DNA of 64,000 nt from Rhizobium sp. ZPR4 (GTDB taxonomy: Bacteria; Pseudomonadota; Alphaproteobacteria; Rhizobiales; Rhizobiaceae): contig NZ_CP157969.1 in NCBI RefSeq assembly GCF_040215725.1, positions 124,001-188,000 on the forward strand, in the 5' to 3' direction. A program made the translations under genes and the position numbers. Positions 33,912 to 46,854 of the stretch are shown piece after piece. Each line of letters opens with the position of its first letter. Positions within the stretch are counted from its first letter, which is position 1. Under the pieces are notes generated by a model, which had not been told where the DNA came from, searched no databases, and worked only from the letters and a program-made list of their open reading frames with translations.

Positions 33912-34871
33912 ATGAAACAGAAAATACCGACGCGGCGAACGCCGGATGCTGGGCTTGCCGCTGCAATCGTATCAGAGGTCATTGGTTGCACTCCGGTTAC
34001 TGTTAGACGCTTCACTACCGGCGCGCAGCACTATGTCTTCGATCTTCAGTTCGCTGACCGGCCTTCGGCCGTTATGCGCATTGCCGATCCATCCGCTCGG
34101 GCCGAAATGGCCGGTGCGGTTTATCTTTCGCGATTATTGCGGCCCGGTGGTGTGCCGCTTCCAGCCATTCTGGCCGAAGATATTGACGCGGAGTTTCCCT
34201 GGCTTCTGCTAGAGCGTTTTCCCGGCACGGATCTGGGTTCGGTCATCTTCAACCTTGCGGAAGAGAAGCTGGATAGGATTGCTTCACGCGTGGCGCATGC
34301 TCAGGCCATCACAGCAAGAACCATATCCGCAGGACGCTACGGATATGCCGCACGAGCGGAACAAGCGCCACACGGCGTGTGGTCGCAAGTGTTGCTTACC
34401 AATCTTGCTCGTTCGCGAGGGCGGATCGGATCTGCCGGATTGTTTGATGTCGGGCTGGTTGACGCAGTCGAACACGAGGTAACAATCCGACGCGAAGAGC
34501 TCGACAAGATTGAAGCGATACCTTTCCTGCATGACACCACGACAAAGAATGTAATTGTCACACCTGAGGGCGCGTTCAGCGGCATTGTTGACGTCGATGA
34601 TCTTTGCTTTGGCGATCCGCGTTATCCTGCCGCTTTAACATTGGCTGCGCTGATGGCCTATGGCGGCCCCGTGAGCTACGTCGATGCGTGGCTCCGGCAC
34701 GCTGGGCGAGCCGATGACCGGCTTTTTCGTCTTTACACGAGTGTCCTTCTACTGGACTTGATGGCCGAGCACGGCCACGTTTTCAACGGCAACGAGACTC
34801 CGTTAGCACCGGCAGTTCAGGCCGCGATGCAGAGCGCACTTGAGTTCAATCTCAACTTAGTACGGTCATGA
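33912..34871 (+). CDS. Aminoglycoside phosphotransferase-family kinase
   Basis: A 319-residue APH/choline-kinase-fold protein. The catalytic loop is FLHDTTTKNVIV (Brenner-type HD...N), and the metal-binding GIVDVDDLCFGDP follows about 20 residues later. The substrate could be an antibiotic, a sugar or another small alcohol; the sequence does not tell. There is no clear ribosome site. Base use here looks less GC-biased than in the flanking genes, and the gene lacks an operon partner, so it may be a recent arrival. Confidence 0.85.
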   Translation: MKQKIPTRRTPDAGLAAAIVSEVIGCTPVTVRRFTTGAQHYVFDLQFADRPSAVMRIADPSARAEMAGAVYLSRLLRPGGVPLPAILAEDIDAEFPWLLLERFPGTDLGSVIFNLAEEKLDRIASRVAHAQAITARTISAGRYGYAARAEQAPHGVWSQVLLTNLARSRGRIGSAGLFDVGLVDAVEHEVTIRREELDKIEAIPFLHDTTTKNVIVTPEGAFSGIVDVDDLCFGDPRYPAALTLAALMAYGGPVSYVDAWLRHAGRADDRLFRLYTSVLLLDLMAEHGHVFNGNETPLAPAVQAAMQSALEFNLNLVRS

Positions 34872-34957: not shown

Positions 34958-36343
34958 CTAGTTTTCCAGCGCCGCCTGCTTGTCCTTGACCAGCCGCGCC
35001 GGCAAATTGACGGTGACGGACAGTCCCCCAAGACTGGAACGGGCGAGCGTCAGCTTGCCGTCATAGGCTTCAACCAGATCCTTGGCGATCGCCAGGCCGA
35101 AGCCGGTTCCGGCGATGCTTTCGTCCAATCGTCTGCCGCGGCGGATGAAAGCCATTTCCGCATCCTCGGGCAGACCCGGGCCATCGTCTTCGATGCACAG
35201 CTCCACCCCCTCGGGCAACTGCGACAGGCGAACCTTGACCTTCCCGGCTGTCCATTTCCTGGCATTGTCGATCAGATTGCCTGTGATGTCGGCAAAATCC
35301 GCCTCGTCGATCGCCAGCCACATCTCGGTCGGCGCCATAAGTTCGAAATCGATCTTCCGCTCGGTCGACAGGCGCCGCATGACCGAGATGATCTTCTGGA
35401 GATCGGCGCTGGCATCCATGACGCCGACGGTATGGGCAGCCGCAAGGCTCGCGCGGGTTTGCGCCAGCGTTCGCTTGATCTGCGCCTCCATCCGGCTGAC
35501 TTCCGTCTGGATGGCCGCGGCCCGCTCCGACATGCCCTCTTCCGAAAGAATGCGGGCGGTCGCCTCAAGTGCTGCGAGCGGGGTCTTCAGACCATGCGCC
35601 AGATCGCCGGCGCGAGCTCGCGCCTGCGTCAACTGCGTCTCACGCGATGCGAGCAGGCCGTTGAGATCGTCGACGAGAGGCTGGACCTCGCGCGGAAACT
35701 GGCCGGTGATCTTGCGCGCGGATCGCTCCTGCACCGCCATCAATGCCGCGCGCAGATCGTTGAGCGGCCGCAATCCGTATCTCAGAAAGGCAATGACGGC
35801 CACGATGAGAGCGGCTGACAACACGCCCAGGGATGGCGCCATGGCGTAGAAGAAACGCCAGCGCGCGGGCGCGAGCTCGCGATTGTCCAGCCCCATCAAG
35901 ATATCGACCATCTGATCGCCCGTCGCCGAAGGGATGGAGATGGAGCGCTCGACGGCAAGAAGATGGCTGCCGTTCGGTCCTTTCATATCCGTTGCCCGGC
36001 CAGCATCGCGAGGGCGCGAACGAAGCCAGGGCAGATTCTGCTCCCAGAGGGATTGCGAGCGCAGCTCCACGTTGCCGTTGCGGCCGACCTGCCAATAGAA
36101 ACCGCCATTCGGGATGCCGAAACGGGAATCCGTCGGCGTATCGTCGAGAAAGAGCTGGTTGGACGAATTGATATCGACCGCGGCCAAAAGAACGCGCAAT
36201 TCCTCGTCTATCTCGGAGAGGGCAAGCGCCCTGACAGCCAGCCCGGAAATGGCATTGATGCCGACGCCTGCCAGAAAGGTTGCGACAATGATTGCCACCG
36301 CAGAACCCAGCAGCAACCGCCCTCGCAGCGAAAACGGCGTCAT
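34958..36343 (-). CDS. Sensor histidine kinase
   Basis: A 461-residue inner-membrane kinase. Membrane segments at about 10-38 and 168-188 enclose a periplasmic sensor domain of about 130 residues. A HAMP-like linker then leads to the dimerisation helix with His250 (GDLAHGLKTPLAAL) and the ATPase domain with DNARKW, DDGPGLP, GTGFGLAIAKDLVEA. The layout is PhoQ/FeuQ-like. Its ATG overlaps the response-regulator stop (ATGA). The trio with the PepSY gene is divergent from the NRPS-like gene, which it may control. Confidence 0.93.
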   Translation of the reverse strand: MTPFSLRGRLLLGSAVAIIVATFLAGVGINAISGLAVRALALSEIDEELRVLLAAVDINSSNQLFLDDTPTDSRFGIPNGGFYWQVGRNGNVELRSQSLWEQNLPWLRSRPRDAGRATDMKGPNGSHLLAVERSISIPSATGDQMVDILMGLDNRELAPARWRFFYAMAPSLGVLSAALIVAVIAFLRYGLRPLNDLRAALMAVQERSARKITGQFPREVQPLVDDLNGLLASRETQLTQARARAGDLAHGLKTPLAALEATARILSEEGMSERAAAIQTEVSRMEAQIKRTLAQTRASLAAAHTVGVMDASADLQKIISVMRRLSTERKIDFELMAPTEMWLAIDEADFADITGNLIDNARKWTAGKVKVRLSQLPEGVELCIEDDGPGLPEDAEMAFIRRGRRLDESIAGTGFGLAIAKDLVEAYDGKLTLARSSLGGLSVTVNLPARLVKDKQAALEN

Positions 36344-37011
36344 GACGGCGGCGCCTCGCGCGGAATGATATAGCCCTGGCCACGCCGCGTCTCGATGACA
36401 GTGCCGTCGAACTTGCGGCGCAGGCGGGCGACGACCACTTCAAGCGCGTTCGACAGAAGCTCCGTCTCTTCGTCATAGATGCTGTCGGCGATCTGCGTTC
36501 GGGAAAGCACAGTGCCGGCATTGTGCATCAGATAGGCAAGGAGCCGATATTCGAGCGCCGTCACCTGGACCGGCTGCCCACGAAACGAAACCGTACGCTG
36601 GCGCGTGTCAAGTTCCAGCACGCCGTTGGAAAGGATCGGAGAGGATTGTCCGGCGGCGCGGCGCATTAGTGCGCGCACGCGGGCCAGAAGTTCTTCCATG
36701 CGGAAAGGCTTGGTCAGATAGTCGTCGGCGCCCGCATCCATGCCGTCGACCTTGTCGCGCCAACCGTCTCGCGCCGTCAATATGATGACGGGCATACCGC
36801 GGCGTTCTGCACGCCAGCGTCGCAGCACCGTCAGGCCATCGAGCTTGGGAAGTCCGAGATCAAGGATGACAAGATCGAAATGCTCGATATCGCCGCGATA
36901 CCAAGCCTCCTCGCCGTTGCTCACGGTCGAGACGACATAATGCTGGTCCTCCAGGCAGCGGCGCATGTCCGCCACAATACTGGGCTCATCCTCAGCAATC
37001 AGAATGCGCAT
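36340..37011 (-). CDS. OmpR/PhoP-family response regulator
   Basis: A 223-residue two-component regulator. The receiver domain has acidic residues EDEP at 7-10, phospho-acceptor Asp51 (LVILDLGLP), TARD and the KPF lysine; a winged-helix DNA-binding domain follows (TALEYRLLAYLMHNAGTVLSRTQIADSIYD, NALEVVVARLRRKF). It is encoded two bases after the PepSY-domain gene and overlaps the kinase gene. The group responds to envelope or cation signals in related bacteria. Confidence 0.95.
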   Translation of the reverse strand: MRILIAEDEPSIVADMRRCLEDQHYVVSTVSNGEEAWYRGDIEHFDLVILDLGLPKLDGLTVLRRWRAERRGMPVIILTARDGWRDKVDGMDAGADDYLTKPFRMEELLARVRALMRRAAGQSSPILSNGVLELDTRQRTVSFRGQPVQVTALEYRLLAYLMHNAGTVLSRTQIADSIYDEETELLSNALEVVVARLRRKFDGTVIETRRGQGYIIPREAPPS

Positions 37012-37013
37012 TT

Positions 37014-37340
37014 TCAGCGTCTCTCGATCACGGCGAGTGTTGCACCGTCGAGCACTATGTCACCACGTTTGCCATCCGGCTTCAATACGCGCACGGCATA
37101 AGCCTGACGCCCAGCCCGGCGAACCCGCTTGATTCGCAGCACCTTTCCCGGCATTTCACGCGCGACGACCGCGTAAATCTCGCGCAGCGGCCGCAAGGTA
37201 CCGGCATCTTCGACCAGAACACTGCTATGCGAACGAGCTAATGCCTCCATGCCTGGCGAGCTCAGCAATGCCGTCACCAAGAGAACGGACAGCCAGCGGT
37301 GCCAGCCGGCTCTTCGCCCGAATATGCGCAACGATATCAA
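37014..37340 (-). CDS. Small exported PepSY-like protein
   Basis: A protein of about 108 residues. A signal peptide (WHRWLSVLLVTALLSSPGMEALA) is followed by one PepSY-like unit: LREIYAVVAREMPGKVLRIKRVRRAGRQAYAVRVLKPDGKRGDIVLDGATLAVIE. No ATG fits; TTG 37340 follows GGAAGAAGGA, and a GTG at 37376 is the alternative. PepSY proteins near PhoPQ-like systems are thought to inhibit proteases or sense periplasmic state. As first gene of the unit, it may serve as signal input for the kinase. Confidence 0.75.
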   Translation of the reverse strand: MISLRIFGRRAGWHRWLSVLLVTALLSSPGMEALARSHSSVLVEDAGTLRPLREIYAVVAREMPGKVLRIKRVRRAGRQAYAVRVLKPDGKRGDIVLDGATLAVIERR

Positions 37341-37509
37341 TCCTTCTTCCGAGATAGCACACGGGGCTCGCCCCACGCCGATCCAAACATAGCTTTCCCA
37401 ACATTACAATTCCCTGACAGCGCCCGTAAGAGAGCTGCAAATTGAAGGGTGTATAAGCATTGATAGATGGCACGCTGATTGTGTCGAGTTTCGTTTCGCA
37501 GAAGTTACC

Positions 37510-40500
37510 ATGACTATCCAGATCTCGTCGATTACCCCAAATGCCAGCCTCTCGGTTTCCTCAGGCGGCATTCGGCCTGAGTTCGTCCGCAATGAAACCC
37601 TGGTGGACATATTCAAGGCAACGGTTGCCCGCAGCCCCGACAAGACGGCACTGACCCTGATCGGAACCGACCAGGCGATGACCTATGCCGAACTTGACCG
37701 GCTCTCCGATGAGGCGGCGCGTGCGCTCGGCCGTCGTGGTATCGGCCCCGGCGATTTCGTTGGCCTGTGGTTCCAACGCTCCCTTGAGCTACATGTCGCG
37801 CTTCTGGCGATTCTCAAGGCCGGAGCTGCCTATATCCCGTTCGATGCGTCCGCTCCTGCCGATCGCGTAGCTGTCAGCCTGGCCGATTGCGGCGCGAAAT
37901 GGCTGCTGACGCATGACGAAAAGGCGGCGCTCGCACCCGAATTCGATGGTCAGACACTGCTCCTCAAGACGCTGTTCGCCGAAGATGACGATGGCATTGC
38001 ACCGCGGGTCGCCACTCACGGCGATCCCGCTTATGCCATCTATACGTCCGGCTCCACGGGCAAGCCGAAGGGCATCGTCATCACACACCGGAATATCTGC
38101 CACTATCTGCGGGCGGGTAACGATGTCCTCGGCATGGTCGAATCGGATGTCGTTCTTCAGCAGGCCTCAGTTGCTTTCGACCTTTCGCTCGAAGAAATAT
38201 TCGTTCCCTATCTGGTCGGCGCGACGCTGAAGGTTGCCACATCTGCCGTCATGGCCGAGCTGGACAGGCTCGCCGATGTGCTGGAAGCGGAAAAGATCAC
38301 GGTCATCGATACCGTGCCGACCCTGCTCACCATGCTGGAACGCGATGTCGAAAGCTTGCGCATCATCATCGTCGGCGGCGAAGCCTGCCCTCCGGCAATC
38401 GTCAGCCGCTTCTCCAAAGCCGGCCGGCGCCTGATCAATACTTACGGCCCGACCGAGACGACGGTGGTTGCAACCTACGTCGAACTCGATCCTTCCCGAC
38501 CCATCACGATCGGCTGCCCGATCGCCAACACGACCGCCTATGTCGTTGATGAAAACCTGCAGCTTGTAGCGCGCGGCGATACCGGTGAATTGCTGATCGG
38601 CGGACCGGGTGTTGCTGCCGGATACAGAAACCTGCTGCAGCTGACCGCTGCCAAGTTCATCGCCAACCCCTTCGCGCCCCATAACGATCCGGTACTTTAC
38701 CGCAGCGGCGACGCCGTGTTGATGGACGAAGAAGGCCAGCTCCATTTCCTCGGCCGCATCGACGATCAGGTCAAGATACGCGGCTATCGCATCGAGCTCG
38801 GCGAGATCGAGATCGTTGTCGGTGAGCTCGCCGATGTGAAAGCTGCTTCCGTGGTCGTACATCGGCCGCCGGATGGCGAGGAGATGCTGGTCGCCCATGT
38901 CGTCACGACAGGCAGCAACTTCGATCGCGACAAGGCGCGCACAGTGCTCGCCGCGAAACTGCCGCCCTATATGGTGCCTGCCGCCTGGCACAGCCATGTG
39001 TCGCTGCCGCGGCTTTCCTCCGGCAAGATCGACCGCAAGACGCTTGCCGCAATCCCTCTGGTCGCCGACCAGTCGACGCAGGCACAAGAGCCGCCCCGCA
39101 CATGGACCGAAGCCCAGCTGCTGAAAGCGGCCACGGAGGCGCTTCGCCTGCGCTCCATCAGCTTCGAAGCCGATTTCTTCACCGAGCTCGGCGGTCACTC
39201 CATGCTCGCGGCCCGTTTCGTTTCCGAAGTCCGCAAGATCCCGCTGCTGGCAGGCATCGCCCTGCGCGACGTCTATGCCGGCCGCACCCTGCGTGGCATC
39301 GCGGCGATCCTGGAGCAGCGCACGGAGCGTACTTCCGGACAGGAGCGCAAGAATTTCGACCCGGTTCCGTGGCGCCGGCGCTTCCTCTGCGGTCTGGCGC
39401 AAGCGGTGGTGCTGCCCTTCATCGTCGCGATCGCAACGCTGCAATGGATCGGCCTGCTGCTCGCCTCGATCCTGCTGATCGATGACGGCGCCTCGGTCTG
39501 GAATGAAATTCTCATTCTGGGCGGCGTCTATCTCGCTCTCAATCTCGGCGAGAAGCTGGTTGTCGTTGCCCTCAAATGGCTCGTCATCGGCCGCACACGC
39601 CCTGGCGTCTATCCGCTGTGGGGCGCCTATTATTTCCGCATCTGGCTGATGCAACGCATCGTCCAGCTCACCGCTCCGAAATTCCTCAAGGGCTCGCCGC
39701 TCATCCGCGTCTATATGCGCGCACTCGGCGCCAGGGTCGGCAAGGATGCGATGATCGACGAATTCGAGGAAGGCGCGATCGACCTTGTGAGCGTCGGCGC
39801 AAGATCCAGCCTCGGCGTCAAGATCAAGCTCGCCAATGTCGAAGTCATCGGCAATGAGATCCATGTCGGCACGATCGATATCGGCGATGGCGTACAGATC
39901 GGCAACGGCTCCGTCATCGGCCATAACGTCAAAATCGGCGACGGCGCCGTCATCGGCGATCTGACGGCAATTGCCGCCGGCACCCATGTCGAGGCCCATA
40001 CTCGCTGGGACGGTTCGCCCGCTCGCCAGACCGGCCATGCGGAACATGAGGAAATGCCGGCGCATCCGGAACTCGGCGTCGCTGGACGCGTGTTCCAGTT
40101 CGCCGCCTATTTCGTTGCCTACAATCTCAGCCTCGTCGTCGGCCTGCTGCCGATCTTCCCGGCCTTCTACCTGTTCTCTGCCGTACAGCAGATCTATGCA
40201 CCTGGCTCCGACGAAGCCCTGTCCTGGGGAATGATCGCCGCACTCTCATGGCCGGCTTCCCTGCTGCTGATCGTCGTGTCCATGGCTGTCGTCGTGGTCT
40301 TGCGCTGGGTGCTGCTGCCCCGCGTCGTACCCGGCCGCTACTCGATCTTCGGCAATCTCTATTTCCGCAAATGGGTTGTCGGCCTGACCACCGAGGCCAT
40401 GCTGGAAACGCTGAACTCGCTCTACGCCACCGTCTTCATGCGCAACTGGTATCGCCTGATGGGTGCCAAGATCGGCAAGGGTACGGAAATCTCGGCAAAC

Positions 40501-41553
40501 TTCGCCGGTCGCTACGACCTCATCGAAATGGGCCGCGACAACTTCATCGGTGACGAGACCATCTTCGGCGACGAGGAAATCCAGAATGGCTGGATGATAC
40601 TCAAGCGCCTGAAGACGGGCGATCGCTGCTTCTTCGGCAACTCCTCCGTCATCTCGCAAGGTGCCGTGATCGAGAGCGATTCACTCGTCGGCATCAAGAC
40701 GCGCCTGCCCGACTCCATGCACGTCAAGGCAGGTGAAACCTGGTGCGGCAGCCCTGCCTTCCAGTTCCCGACGCGCGAGAGGCTGCAGGCGGCTGCGTCC
40801 GCCACCTATGCACCGCCGCTGCGTATGCGCCTTGTGCGCATCGTGTTCGAAGCCATGCATACCTCGTTGCCAACCGCCATTCTCATCGTCATGGCGCTCG
40901 CAATGTCCGACATGATGGCAAGCGCGATCGATGATGGCGCTTGGGGAAGACTGTTCTGGACGCTGATGGCTTCCGGCCTCGCAACTTCGGGCATCCTGTA
41001 TCTGGTCGCCGTCGCCTTTAAATGGACGCTCATCGGTACCTACAAGCCGATGAACCGGCCGATGTGGTCCTGGTGGGCAATGCGTACCGAGGCCGTCGCG
41101 GTCTTCTACGGCGGGCTCGCCAGCAAGATGCTGCTTGACTATCTGCGCGGCACGCCCTTCCTGCCATGGCTGCTCCGTCCCTTCGGCACCAAGATCGGCC
41201 AGGGGGCATGGATCAACAGCACCGATATCTGCGAGTTCGATTGCACCCATATCGGCGACCATGCCGTACTCAACATGGGATCCTGCCCGCAGACCCATCT
41301 CTATGAAGACCGCATCATGAAGGTCGGCCGCATCATGATCGGCAAAGGCGTCTCCATCGGTACGGGAAGCACCGTCCTGTACGAGGCCAATGTCGGCGAT
41401 TTCGCTGAGATCGGACCGCTGACCCTGGTCATGAAGGGTGAAGCCATCCCGCAAGGAACGTCATGGGTCGGCACCCCCGCCCAGGCGGTTCAAGCCGAGC
41501 AGGAGCAGGCCCCGGTTGCTCGGAAAGAGACCCTGCCCTCCGCCGCCGCGTGA
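37510..41553 (+). CDS. NRPS-like adenylation-carrier protein fused to a membrane/left-handed beta-helix domain (poly-amino-acid synthase-like)
   Basis: A 1347-residue single-module protein. Residues 30-520 are an adenylation domain (YTSGSTGKPKG, NTYGPTETT, YRSGD, GRIDDQVKIRGYRIELGE, LSSGKIDRK). A carrier domain follows with phosphopantetheine site Ser564 (LGGHS). There is no condensation domain. From about 620 on, hydrophobic segments alternate with three hexapeptide-repeat blocks at roughly 728-840, 977-1085 and 1213-1330. This layout matches the C-terminal half of epsilon-poly-lysine synthetase (Pls)-type enzymes, where the tandem domains join monomers by isopeptide bonds. Residues read by eye as the specificity code are D-L-E-D-I-G-T-V-V-K, which suits a basic amino acid. 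The PPTase gene is directly downstream. Confidence 0.88.
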   Translation: MTIQISSITPNASLSVSSGGIRPEFVRNETLVDIFKATVARSPDKTALTLIGTDQAMTYAELDRLSDEAARALGRRGIGPGDFVGLWFQRSLELHVALLAILKAGAAYIPFDASAPADRVAVSLADCGAKWLLTHDEKAALAPEFDGQTLLLKTLFAEDDDGIAPRVATHGDPAYAIYTSGSTGKPKGIVITHRNICHYLRAGNDVLGMVESDVVLQQASVAFDLSLEEIFVPYLVGATLKVATSAVMAELDRLADVLEAEKITVIDTVPTLLTMLERDVESLRIIIVGGEACPPAIVSRFSKAGRRLINTYGPTETTVVATYVELDPSRPITIGCPIANTTAYVVDENLQLVARGDTGELLIGGPGVAAGYRNLLQLTAAKFIANPFAPHNDPVLYRSGDAVLMDEEGQLHFLGRIDDQVKIRGYRIELGEIEIVVGELADVKAASVVVHRPPDGEEMLVAHVVTTGSNFDRDKARTVLAAKLPPYMVPAAWHSHVSLPRLSSGKIDRKTLAAIPLVADQSTQAQEPPRTWTEAQLLKAATEALRLRSISFEADFFTELGGHSMLAARFVSEVRKIPLLAGIALRDVYAGRTLRGIAAILEQRTERTSGQERKNFDPVPWRRRFLCGLAQAVVLPFIVAIATLQWIGLLLASILLIDDGASVWNEILILGGVYLALNLGEKLVVVALKWLVIGRTRPGVYPLWGAYYFRIWLMQRIVQLTAPKFLKGSPLIRVYMRALGARVGKDAMIDEFEEGAIDLVSVGARSSLGVKIKLANVEVIGNEIHVGTIDIGDGVQIGNGSVIGHNVKIGDGAVIGDLTAIAAGTHVEAHTRWDGSPARQTGHAEHEEMPAHPELGVAGRVFQFAAYFVAYNLSLVVGLLPIFPAFYLFSAVQQIYAPGSDEALSWGMIAALSWPASLLLIVVSMAVVVVLRWVLLPRVVPGRYSIFGNLYFRKWVVGLTTEAMLETLNSLYATVFMRNWYRLMGAKIGKGTEISANFAGRYDLIEMGRDNFIGDETIFGDEEIQNGWMILKRLKTGDRCFFGNSSVISQGAVIESDSLVGIKTRLPDSMHVKAGETWCGSPAFQFPTRERLQAAASATYAPPLRMRLVRIVFEAMHTSLPTAILIVMALAMSDMMASAIDDGAWGRLFWTLMASGLATSGILYLVAVAFKWTLIGTYKPMNRPMWSWWAMRTEAVAVFYGGLASKMLLDYLRGTPFLPWLLRPFGTKIGQGAWINSTDICEFDCTHIGDHAVLNMGSCPQTHLYEDRIMKVGRIMIGKGVSIGTGSTVLYEANVGDFAEIGPLTLVMKGEAIPQGTSWVGTPAQAVQAEQEQAPVARKETLPSAAA

Positions 41554-41561
41554 GCAGCGGC

Positions 41562-42179
41562 ATGACGGCCCCTCGATTTGAGGTCGTCCTGACGGTCGCA
41601 AATGCGATCGCCATCCTTGTCCGCCCGATGCCGGGCGGACGAGCAGAGCGTGATAAGGTCGCGCAAGTAGCCTTGAGAACAGCAACACAGCGGGACGATC
41701 TTTCCATCTATCGCCGGCCAAGTGAACGGCCGGCGCTCAGGCATCCCTATCACGAACTGGGTATTTCGCTTTCGCATCGCGCCGATCTGCTGCTGGCGGG
41801 CTTTGCGCCTGATGGCGCTGTCGGTGTGGATATAGAGATCGAAGATATCAACGGATTCGAACCGGTGGCCTTTGCCGCCGATCACTTCTCACCGCAGGAA
41901 GCGGCCGCGGTAGCCGCCCTCGATAGCGCGGCGGCACTGGAGATTTGCTACCGGCTGTGGGTCGCCAAGGAGGCTGCATTGAAGATCAGCGGCCGCGGCA
42001 TTTTCGACGGGCTGGACGAACCCGATCTGGCGGCGCAACTGCACCTCCTCCGCACCGATGGCGCAATCATCCAGCTTGACGCCGGATCGCGGCTGCCGCC
42101 GATTGCACTCACCGTGACCCGGTTTGGCGGGGCCGCGGCTCAATCCGTCTATTGCGCCCTTGCCAGGGATATGAGCTGA
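41562..42179 (+). CDS. 4'-phosphopantetheinyl transferase (Sfp-like)
   Basis: A 205-residue transferase that moves phosphopantetheine from CoA to the carrier-domain serine. The key motifs are GVDIEIED at about 93-100 (Mg-binding Asp and Glu) and LWVAKEAALKISGRG (W-x-x-KEA). GISLSHRADLLLAGF is the usual CoA-binding His motif. The start is ATG 41562, or GTG 41550, which overlaps the NRPS-like stop by four bases. Direct coupling to the NRPS-like gene strongly suggests that it activates Ser564 of that protein. Confidence 0.88.
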   Translation: MTAPRFEVVLTVANAIAILVRPMPGGRAERDKVAQVALRTATQRDDLSIYRRPSERPALRHPYHELGISLSHRADLLLAGFAPDGAVGVDIEIEDINGFEPVAFAADHFSPQEAAAVAALDSAAALEICYRLWVAKEAALKISGRGIFDGLDEPDLAAQLHLLRTDGAIIQLDAGSRLPPIALTVTRFGGAAAQSVYCALARDMS

Positions 42180-44201: not shown

Positions 44202-45020
44202 ATGACGATGGAGGCTGTACGGGCGGTCAGCCTGAAACAGGTGGCGATTTCCTTTGAAATGGCCGGCAAGGCACGGTTCGACGCCGTAGCGGCGACCAAT
44301 CTGGATGTAGAGGCGCATGAGTTCGTGGCCATTGTCGGCCCGACGGGTTGCGGTAAATCCACGCTTCTGAACGCGGCGGCTGGCCTTTTGACGCCGGCCT
44401 CCGGCACGGTCGAAGTCTTCGGCCAACCGCTGAAGGCAATCAATCGGCAGGCAGGCTATCTCTTCCAGCAGGATTCGCTGATGCCGTGGAAAACGGTTCT
44501 CGAGAATGTTGCGATCGGACTCGAGATCGCGGGAACGGATACGACCGAGGCAAGAAGGATCGCCCGCGATTGGCTGGGGCGTGTCGGCCTTGCGACATTT
44601 GCCGATCGTTTCCCACGAATGCTCTCCGGCGGCCAGCGCAAGCGCGTCGGTCTCGCCCAGGTGCTCATCCGCAATCCGAAACTGCTCCTGATGGACGAGC
44701 CTTTCGGACCGCTCGACGCGCAGACACGCCTCATCATGGGCGACCTCCTGCTCAAGCTCTGGTCCGAGGACCGCAAGGCCGTGCTATTCGTTACGCACGA
44801 TCTCGATGAGGCTATTGGCCTTGCCGACCGCGTTGTCATCATGTCAGCCGGTCCGAAATCCCGCATCATCGGCGATTTCAAGGTGCCTTTGGAGCGACCG
44901 CGCGATATCGGCGAGATACGCCACGATCCCGTCTTCAACCGGCTTCATCGCGATATCTGGCAGGCGCTGCGCGATGAAGTGATGACGGCCTATCGCCAGA
45001 GCAGTGGGGAGGTCGCATGA
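44202..45020 (+). CDS. ABC transporter ATPase, SsuB/TauB/NrtD type
   Basis: A 272-residue ATPase with Walker A GPTGCGKST, Q-loop LFQQDSLMPWK, signature MLSGGQRKR, Walker B LLLMDEPFGPLDAQT and H-loop FVTHDLDEAIGLADRV. The MPWKTV and DEA-A-L patterns mark the nitrate/sulfonate/taurine/pyrimidine family. ATG 44202 follows GGGAGGA at a longer-than-usual distance, with AAGG closer. It overlaps the permease gene by four bases (ATGA). Confidence 0.93.
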   Translation: MTMEAVRAVSLKQVAISFEMAGKARFDAVAATNLDVEAHEFVAIVGPTGCGKSTLLNAAAGLLTPASGTVEVFGQPLKAINRQAGYLFQQDSLMPWKTVLENVAIGLEIAGTDTTEARRIARDWLGRVGLATFADRFPRMLSGGQRKRVGLAQVLIRNPKLLLMDEPFGPLDAQTRLIMGDLLLKLWSEDRKAVLFVTHDLDEAIGLADRVVIMSAGPKSRIIGDFKVPLERPRDIGEIRHDPVFNRLHRDIWQALRDEVMTAYRQSSGEVA

Positions 45021-45787
45021 ACCGCTCCCTCCTTCTCCTGCTGCAGATCCTGGTGGCGCTTGTCATTCTGGTCCTTTGGCATCTTGCAACAAATACCAGC
45101 CTCTTTGGCAACCCGAAGACCATATCCTTTTTCTTTGCCGATCCGCTCAAGGTCGCGCAGCGTGTCATCCAATGGTTCGCCAGCGGATCGATCTGGTATC
45201 ATCTCTGGATTACCTTATCGGAATCGATCCTCGCTTTCCTGCTCGGCGCCTTCGGCGGCATCGTCTTCGGCTTCTGGTTCGCGCGCCGGCCGCTGATCGC
45301 CGCGGTGTTCGATCCTTACGTGAAAGCGGCAAACGCGCTGCCTCGCGTCGTTCTCGCCCCGATCTTCGCGCTCTGGTTCGGCCTCGGCATCTGGTCCAAG
45401 GTCGCGCTTGGCATCACGCTGGTTTTCTTCATCGTCTTCTTCAACGTCTATCAAGGCGTCAAGGAAGTCAGCCAGCCGGTCCTGTCCAATGCCCGCATGC
45501 TTGGCATGAACGAGCGCCAGCTGCTGCGCCATGTCTATTTGCCCTCCGCACTTTCCTGGGTGTTTTCCAGCCTGCATACCTCGGTAGGTTTTGCCGTCGT
45601 CGGCGCGGTCGTCGGTGAATATTTGGGCTCTGCCGCGGGTCTCGGCTATCTCATCCAGCAGGCCGAGGGTGTTTTTGACGTGACGGGCGTCTTTGCGGGC
45701 ATGGTAGTTCTGACCGCCTTTGTCCTGCTCGTGGACTGGGCGATGACGATGGTCGAACGGCGCCTGCTGGCCTGGCGCGGCCAGTAG
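45017..45787 (+). CDS. ABC transporter permease, SsuC/TauC type
   Basis: A 256-residue inner-membrane permease with six hydrophobic segments. The coupling loop contains NARMLGMNERQLLRHVYLPSALSWVFSSLHTSVGFAVVGAVVGEYLGSAAGLGYLIQQA, diagnostic for the family. It is coupled to the ATPase gene and followed 35 bases later by the binding-protein gene. Confidence 0.93.
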   Translation: MNRSLLLLLQILVALVILVLWHLATNTSLFGNPKTISFFFADPLKVAQRVIQWFASGSIWYHLWITLSESILAFLLGAFGGIVFGFWFARRPLIAAVFDPYVKAANALPRVVLAPIFALWFGLGIWSKVALGITLVFFIVFFNVYQGVKEVSQPVLSNARMLGMNERQLLRHVYLPSALSWVFSSLHTSVGFAVVGAVVGEYLGSAAGLGYLIQQAEGVFDVTGVFAGMVVLTAFVLLVDWAMTMVERRLLAWRGQ

Positions 45788-45822
45788 CACATGGAAAATA
45801 GTGAAGTGGAGGAAAAAGGAAC

Positions 45823-46854
45823 ATGGAACGCAGGACATTTCTGATCGGGACGGCAAGCTTCGGTATCGGCGCGTCGCTTACCGGCATCCTCCCCGCCGCG
45901 GCACAGGATGCGAAACCGGAAAAGCCGGATCTGTTGATCGGTGTCGGCGGCAAGCCGCTGCTCTATTACCTGCCGCTGACCATCGCCGAGCGGAAAGGCT
46001 TCTTCAAGGAAGAGGGTCTCAACGTCACCATCAATGATTTCGCCGGCGGTTCGAAGTCGCTCGAAGGCTTGATCGGCGGCTCGCTCGATGTCGTCGCCGG
46101 CGCCTATGAACACACGATCCGTATGCAGAACAAGGGGCAGGATATCGTCGCGATCTGCAATCTCGGCCGCTTCCCGGGCATCGTTATCGCCGTGCGCAAG
46201 GATCTCGCCGGCGAGATCAAGTCGATGGCCGATATGAAGGGTCGCAAGATCGGCGTGACCGCGCCAGGCTCCTCGACGGCGCTGATGTTCCAATATGCCA
46301 TGCTGAAGAACGGATTGAAGACCGACGATGCGTCGCTGATCGGCGTCGGCGGCGGAGCCGGCGCGGTTGCCGCGGTCAAGAGCGGTCAGATCGACGGTCT
46401 TTCCCACCTCGATCCGGTTATCGCGCAGCTGCAATATGACGGCGACATCACCGTCCTTCTGGATACCCGCACCGAAGCCGGCACCCGCGCGCTTTTCGGC
46501 GGCCCGAACCCGGCCGCGACCGTCTACATCAAGCGCGAATTTGCTAAAGAGAATCCGATCACCACGCAGCGGACGGTCAATGCCTTCATGAAGGCATTGA
46601 AATGGATCGCGACGGCAAGCCCCGAAGATGTCGCCGGCGTCGTGCCGGAAGAGTACCTGCTCGGCAATCGTGACCTCTATATGCAGGCCTTCAAGAATTC
46701 CAAGGAAATGTATTCCCCGGACGGCATGGTCACGATGGAAGGCTATAATTCCATGATGGGCGTCTTGAAGACGCTCGATCCCGAACTCGCCAATGCCGAC
46801 GTGCCCTTCGACAAGACATTCGATCCGACCTTCGCAAAGGCCGCAAAGACCTGA
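45823..46854 (+). CDS. NMT1/SsuA-like ABC transporter substrate-binding protein
   Basis: A 343-residue periplasmic protein. The signal peptide starts MERRTFLIGTASFGIG and looks like a Tat signal (R-R-x-F-L). The mature part has YLPLTIAERKGFFKEEGLNVTINDFAGGSKSLEGLIGGSLDVVAG and GRKIGVTAPGSSTALMFQYAM, typical of NMT1/SsuA/TauA proteins. GGAGG lies before the start. The substrate is unknown; the family covers sulfonates, thiamine pyrimidines, aromatic acids and others. Confidence 0.9.
   Translation: MERRTFLIGTASFGIGASLTGILPAAAQDAKPEKPDLLIGVGGKPLLYYLPLTIAERKGFFKEEGLNVTINDFAGGSKSLEGLIGGSLDVVAGAYEHTIRMQNKGQDIVAICNLGRFPGIVIAVRKDLAGEIKSMADMKGRKIGVTAPGSSTALMFQYAMLKNGLKTDDASLIGVGGGAGAVAAVKSGQIDGLSHLDPVIAQLQYDGDITVLLDTRTEAGTRALFGGPNPAATVYIKREFAKENPITTQRTVNAFMKALKWIATASPEDVAGVVPEEYLLGNRDLYMQAFKNSKEMYSPDGMVTMEGYNSMMGVLKTLDPELANADVPFDKTFDPTFAKAAKT

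Follow-up and report, generated by a model that had tools for sequence, protein, structure and literature searches.

The window (the whole stretch of 64,000 nucleotides analysed here) lies on contig C3 (1.24 Mb), separate from contig C1 (4.06 Mb), in the genome of a soil bacterium that belongs to the Rhizobium tropici group. It contains a gene encoding a large synthetase, followed by a gene encoding a 4'-phosphopantetheinyl transferase (PPTase), and, in the divergent direction, genes encoding a small protein, a response regulator and a sensor histidine kinase, referred to below as the trio. A putative regulator box was found between the divergent genes. The features are listed in Table 1.

Table 1. 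Features of the synthetase locus and of the related chromosomal system
Feature	Position	Strand	Basis or details
PhoQ-like sensor histidine kinase	34958..36343	-	PF00512, PF02518
OmpR/PhoP-type response regulator	36340..37011	-	PF00072, PF00486
Small protein, 120 aa from GTG (start uncertain), in FeuN's place	37014..37376	-	ORF; signal-like N-terminus
Putative response-regulator box	37404..37440	+	half-sites TTACA, TGACA, GTAAG, GCAA, 11 bp apart
Candidate -10 element TATAAG	37452..37457	+	by eye, 11 bases after the box
Pls/PosA-family synthetase, 1347 aa	37510..41553	+	TIGR02353, Pfam, pocket alignment, AlphaFold2 of C-terminal part
Synthetase, adenylation part	residues ~30-515
Synthetase, pocket code DLEDIGTVVK	D224 L225 E228 D267 I287 G289 T311 V319 V320 K506
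Synthetase, carrier part	residues 537-599
Synthetase, membrane/beta-helix terminal domain	residues ~612-1347
Sfp-type 4'-phosphopantetheinyl transferase	41562..42179	+	PF01648, 48 bits
FeuNPQ-like chromosomal system (L082)	C1:682681-686331		84-aa protein, regulator, kinase

Family, domains and terminal fold of the synthetase

The TIGR02353 model (Pls/PosA family) matched residues 630-1324 of the synthetase with 556.2 bits, against a curated cut-off of 423.1. Since the six other stretches of the genome that match this model reach only about 21-27 bits, the synthetase is present as a single copy above the TIGR02353 cut-off. In the Pfam scan, AMP-binding (PF00501) covered residues 35-372, AMP-binding_C covered residues 432-506 (22.3 bits, slightly below the cut-off of 24.5), PP-binding covered residues 537-599 (21.7 bits, cut-off 20.8) and Hexapep (PF00132) was also matched, while no condensation or thioesterase domain was among the Pfam matches, confirming the one-adenylation, one-carrier plan of the original prediction. 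That prediction had also likened the protein to poly-lysine synthases, and the likeness is more than analogy because the TIGR02353 cut-off is passed and the substrate pocket is closest to those of PosA and the poly-lysine synthase. Judged from its sequence, the synthetase is an ordinary further member of the known Pls/PosA kind (cationic homo-poly-amino-acid synthetases; antiSMASH class NAPAA). The NCBI name "Pls/PosA family non-ribosomal peptide synthetase" is already carried by Rhizobium and Labrys relatives, and the closest named record among the best 80 of 261 stretches, "Rhizobium rhizogenes strain 17-2069-2c", has a synthetase 99% identical to that of the window.

Hydropathy analysis gave eight peaks, two pairs of which overlap, resulting in six membrane regions arranged in three pairs (residues 633-685, 861-936 and 1111-1170). 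An AlphaFold2 model of residues 612-1347, built from a 32-sequence alignment (mean pLDDT 85.5, pTM 0.86), contained three times a unit of a long helix hairpin, a short strand, an amphipathic helix and a beta-helix, in line with the three membrane-linked beta-helix domains predicted earlier. The terminal domain of PosA has been modelled with the same three-unit picture (PMC10522769). No solved structure of the entire terminal domain was present among 60 of the 76 sequence matches or among the best 50 fold matches. Invariant or nearly invariant polar residues were most frequent in the third unit, where Q1261 is invariant and H1263 and E1266 are nearly so in the 46-sequence alignment, and this peak of conservation hints that the domain may have one asymmetric active site rather than three.

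Among the 50 best Foldseek matches listed for the terminal-domain model were maltose and serine acetyltransferases and LpxD, the latter an acyltransferase solved with an acyl-carrier protein; these matches cover the model only in part (E 6e-5 to 6.5e-4, TM-score by model length at most 0.17). The resemblance to such single-step beta-helix acyltransferases could mean that no polymer is made, and that one basic amino acid is loaded and then passed by the beta-helix domain to a lipid, glycan or protein acceptor of the envelope in a manner similar to D-alanylation. The NCBIfam DltA models, which match the adenylation domain far below their cut-off, and the envelope-stress type of the trio are in line with this. 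However, the characterised members of the family described in PMC10522769 make isopeptide polymers, and the scan of 20 representatives of the neighbouring genes revealed no partner that would modify an acceptor, so the transfer of single residues is considered quite unlikely, and polymerisation is retained as the preferred reading.

Substrate pocket and distribution of the DLED code

Within the pocket region (residues 215-327), the best matches among solved structures were PosA (8g95/8g97) and the poly-lysine synthase (7wew). With the entire adenylation domain, linear gramicidin synthase topped the list because two of its domains were summed, and PosA was the best single-domain match. D224 and E228, at code positions 1 and 3, align with the Asp/Glu pair kept in 8g95/8g97 and 7wew; in PosA, the Asp binds the alpha-amine and the Glu the side-chain amine of the substrate (PMC10522769). 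These acidic pocket residues fit a cationic amino acid, and a cationic diamino acid is the likely unit. Position 2 has been proposed to set the chain length, with Ala for lysine, Met for ornithine and Phe for two shorter acids (PMC10522769). Since the Leu found at this position in the window protein is about the size of Met, a unit of ornithine length or shorter is favoured as the most likely one, with lysine possible.

The code was constant in all 80 relatives (the best 80 of 261 stretches) except for I/L/V and T/S swaps. Position 4 was Asp in 80/80 of these best-scoring relatives, and in the 46-row alignment in 32/32 DLED-type rows and 0/14 other rows; the poly-lysine synthase has Ser here and PosA has His. 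With D267, the pocket gains a second negative charge, so that the polymer might be built from a unit outside the known set, for example a beta- or hydroxylated diamino acid or one resembling arginine; arginine is preferred by a Bdellovibrionales member whose different code is also unusual (PMC10522769). This proposal is somewhat unlikely, since position 4 does not contact the substrate in PosA (PMC10522769) and seven of nine aligned pocket positions equal those of the poly-lysine synthase, and an ordinary diamino acid of ornithine length or shorter is kept as the favoured unit.

The code "D L E D I G T V T/V/I K" was printed in 2023 for Rhizobia, Methylobacterium and Archaea without a substrate (PMC10522769), and a NAPAA cluster of Bosea has the code DLedLgTVvK, its substrate likewise not given in the accessible text (PMC10508160). 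The DLED chemotype is thus already in print, and the window synthetase belongs to it by its code. No product for a DLED-type code is given in the consulted literature, including the accessible parts of PMC10522769 and PMC10508160.

Among 60 Rhizobium genomes, 10, including that of the window, had a TIGR02353 match above the cut-off, and eight fell in the score class of the window synthetase (552-564 bits), the other seven being recognised by score and adjacent regulator, with the code read for the window protein only. The remaining two (G004 and G044; loci L111 and L112) encode a different Pls/PosA synthetase of about 850 bits with the code DFEALGTVTK. This code, which was also found in six genomes of a sister genus of the same family, is of the Phe-at-position-2 type linked to diaminopropionate and diaminobutyrate (PMC10522769). 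Among 299 genomes drawn from the phylum, 25 matched TIGR02353 at E 1e-60 or better, 24 of them above the cut-off.

A quick tree of 46 sequences placed the DLED code on one side of a branch with full SH-aLRT support and did the same for DFEALGTVTK; the tool warned of long branches meeting there. The window synthetase grouped with that of R. rhizogenes, then with Labrys, and then with the Hyphomicrobiaceae-type and Devosia sequences. The PosA code DMEHNGTVSK was found in the synthetases of L089, L090 and L092. A synthetase on a long branch (L094, genome G204) has the code DVEANGTGSK, which was not met in the accessible parts of the consulted literature.

Gene neighbourhood, regulatory trio and putative regulator box

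The original prediction of an adjacent Sfp-like PPTase was upheld by the Pfam match, with the gene start moved: the listed ORF start at 41463 lies inside the synthetase, and the likely start is the ATG at 41562, 8 bases past the synthetase stop. The protein is one of five ACPS-family matches in the genome. A PPTase gene adjoined the synthetase gene in 14/16 Rhizobium-group loci and 5/5 Devosia/Hyphomicrobiaceae-type loci of the best 80 of 261 stretches; it was not found in the two Labrys loci of that set or in L126. L125, from a more distant genome of the Labrys genus, has the PPTase, so all five genes are present there. Together with the tree, this fits an ancestral synthetase-PPTase pair to which the trio may have been added before the split between the Labrys and Rhizobium copies, the PPTase being lost later in some of them.

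In the same best 80 of 261 stretches, the trio was observed in 16/16 Rhizobium-group loci and 2/2 Labrys loci, with the small protein present in all 18. No trio was seen in the available DNA of the other 62 loci, of which 46 include at least 1.5 kb upstream and 39 at least 4 kb; weak regulator-like matches in L050 and L051 (31% over 104 aa, far from the synthetase) were not scored as a trio. The view of a self-contained locus is right in part: in Rhizobium and Labrys the synthetase is accompanied by the trio, and most close relatives have the PPTase next to it, but neither of the two was found in the available DNA of 57 of the 80 relatives (best of 261 stretches). The PPTase and the trio are outside the family core.

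For the other neighbours, our own gene calls in the 80 loci were clustered, and 20 of the 26 listed representatives of recurrent clusters, one for each cluster, were scanned with Pfam. As the gene caller missed the PPTase, the APH gene and the small protein in L012, the cluster counts are lower bounds. Several candidate partners were rejected because their presence varies from one close Rhizobium locus to the next. They include an APH-like gene (33912-34871; 3/16 loci: L001, L002 and L012), the phosphate-symporter-like and metallo-hydrolase-like genes of one flank, and the SBF, methyltransferase and ABC-transporter genes of the opposite flank. A downstream nitrate/sulfonate-type ABC transporter of the window (44202-46854; ATPase, permease-like ORF and SsuA-like binding protein) is found near the synthetase in many, not all, Rhizobium loci. 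No diamino-acid biosynthesis gene was recognised by Pfam among the 20 representatives, and none of them offered an explanation of the synthetase substrate. Elsewhere the synthetase sits mostly amid housekeeping genes, with neighbours of the FabI-type reductase, histidine phosphatase, chorismate synthase, DHBP synthase, fumarase, pterin-binding enzyme and DnaJ types. Hydrolase clusters that could conceivably act on a polymer were of the amidase (at least 7 loci), histone-deacetylase (at least 12), amidohydrolase (at least 3) and prolyl oligopeptidase (at least 3) types. In L018, L019 and L020, a prolyl-oligopeptidase-family gene, for which one representative was scanned, follows the synthetase and PPTase genes and possibly encodes a product-degrading enzyme.

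The divergent small protein, regulator and kinase were found as the original prediction had stated, except that no PepSY domain was called. The small protein had no Pfam or NCBIfam match, so that "PepSY" describes a resemblance only. The best NCBIfam relative of the kinase was PhoQ (150 bits, below the cut-off of 497). Regulators of the window type (97-100% identical) occurred in 8/60 Rhizobium genomes, exactly the eight of the synthetase score class, at 2.4 kb from the matched synthetase domain. Among 397 genomes of the order, six had the close regulator type (at least 79% identity), two of Rhizobium and four of the Labrys genus, in each case beside a synthetase. Two of these four (L127 and L128) duplicate L022 and L015, respectively (100% over 10501 bases), and add no evidence. 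As the trio and the box rest on two genera, the co-occurrence represents few independent events.

Regulators at 56-61% identity were found in seven further genomes of the 397, and no synthetase was found near the three that were looked at (L129-L131) within the 9-13 kb fetched, L129 beginning 1.5 kb before the regulator. L131 (genome G328, C21:21000-34000) holds a small-protein/regulator/kinase set 32%, 58% and 38% identical to that of the window with no synthetase nearby, indicating that such trios have other uses; a DLED-type synthetase of G328 lies on a different contig.

In the spacer alignment, the box was a stretch common to Rhizobium and Labrys in otherwise diverged DNA. A half-site spacing of 11 bp is typical of OmpR/PhoB-type regulators. 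With the candidate TATAAG 11 bases past the box, the -35 region would overlap the box. The plain identity of the box between Rhizobium and Labrys is modest (24/38), with 8/2000 simulated sequences as good and the length chosen after the match was seen. A pattern of 19 fixed positions was present in 18/18 trio loci and 0/62 others, whose best count was 14 (best 80 of 261 stretches). Because the Rhizobium and Labrys sequences themselves supplied the pattern, the 18/18 follows by construction, and the controls are the 0/62 and the diverged Labrys locus L125, which is outside the pattern set and has 17/19 box positions, with 0/5000 simulated upstream sequences as good. The core of three half-sites occurs twice in the genome (reversed control 0), the only other match being C2:1222694-1222720, a possible second target of the regulator.

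It could be argued from this second core site, from the comparable trio of L131 and from the many relatives that show no trio (best 80 of 261 stretches) that the trio is a bystander with another regulatory target that just happens to accompany the synthetase. Such a role is unlikely, since the box lies between the divergent genes, beside the candidate -10 element, and was kept in Labrys while other spacer DNA diverged, and since the regulator and the synthetase class co-occur strictly in the 60 Rhizobium genomes. The trio seems to be dedicated to the synthetase, and the regulatory set is apparently the new part of this locus.

The closest paralogue of the regulator in the genome (C1:684181) is 52% identical, is followed by a kinase 30% identical to that of the window, and comes after an 84-aa protein whose start is signal-like. 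The small protein of the window is in the corresponding place and has a signal-like N-terminus, with no BLAST match to the 84-aa protein. Just upstream of the C1 set there is one TTCA-N7-TTCA site (0.09 expected by chance; 16/200 shuffles have one), which is the motif that has been proposed for FeuP (PMC3616915), and the set appears to be the native FeuNPQ of this genome. All 60 Rhizobium genomes have a separate regulator with 48-53% identity to that of the window, and with the window type in 8/60, the window regulator is a paralogue and not an orthologue of this core, FeuP-like gene.

Proposed mechanism and comparison with known systems

On the basis of the observed architecture, family membership, pocket residues, gene linkage and conserved box, the locus probably makes a cationic homopolymer under its own envelope-sensing control. 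In the scheme that we infer, the PPTase would arm the carrier domain, the adenylation domain would activate a basic diamino acid and load it onto the carrier, and the membrane-embedded three-beta-helix domain would join the units via their side-chain amines and release a short chain. The FeuNPQ-like trio would monitor the envelope for some condition, which may be the presence of cationic peptides or of the polymer made, and the regulator would bind the four-half-site box and turn the synthetase on.

In Sinorhizobium, FeuP and FeuQ respond to the host NCR peptide NCR247 in the periplasm and are restrained by the periplasmic FeuN (PMC12486126, preprint), which makes the sensing of cationic peptides or of the cell's own product a natural idea. 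Taken further, a private sensor of the FeuQ/PhoQ type could have the cationic polymer as its ligand. The cell would thereby sense its own envelope signal, one that mimics the NCR peptides of a host, and the polymer would then be a regulated surface or signalling molecule and not only an antibiotic; this extension is speculative and unlikely. If the main scheme is true, the locus would provide a testable case of the regulation of a cationic homopolymer synthetase with the regulator, kinase and DNA box named, and would bear on the substrate of the DLED pocket type, which is found in many alphaproteobacteria (80/80 among the best 80 of 261 stretches). It is the dedicated regulatory set that merits further attention.

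Compared with PosA, the delta-poly-L-ornithine synthetase of Acinetobacter baumannii (PMC10522769; 8g95-8g98), the window synthetase has the same domain plan, the TIGR02353 domain (by the model's name), the Asp/Glu pair of the pocket and Thr at position 7, and differs in its code, which is DMEHNGTVSK in PosA (from the residues named in PMC10522769 and the alignment) and DLEDIGTVVK in the window. The domain plan is also common to Pls, the epsilon-poly-L-lysine synthetase of Streptomyces albulus (7wew), which has DAESIGTVV in the aligned part, so that the window protein has Leu for Ala at position 2 and Asp for Ser at position 4. An operon with a peptidase gene and a Streptomyces peptidase that degrades poly-lysine have been described (PMC8117764); such a peptidase has no counterpart at the window locus. 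The DLED group (PMC10522769) and the Bosea cluster (PMC10508160) share the code of the window protein, and neither trio nor box is described in the accessible parts of these papers or in the open-licence literature searched. With FeuN-FeuP-FeuQ of Sinorhizobium meliloti, the window trio shares the order of small protein, regulator and kinase; it differs in being a second, accessory copy, whose box has the same 11-bp spacing with other letters.
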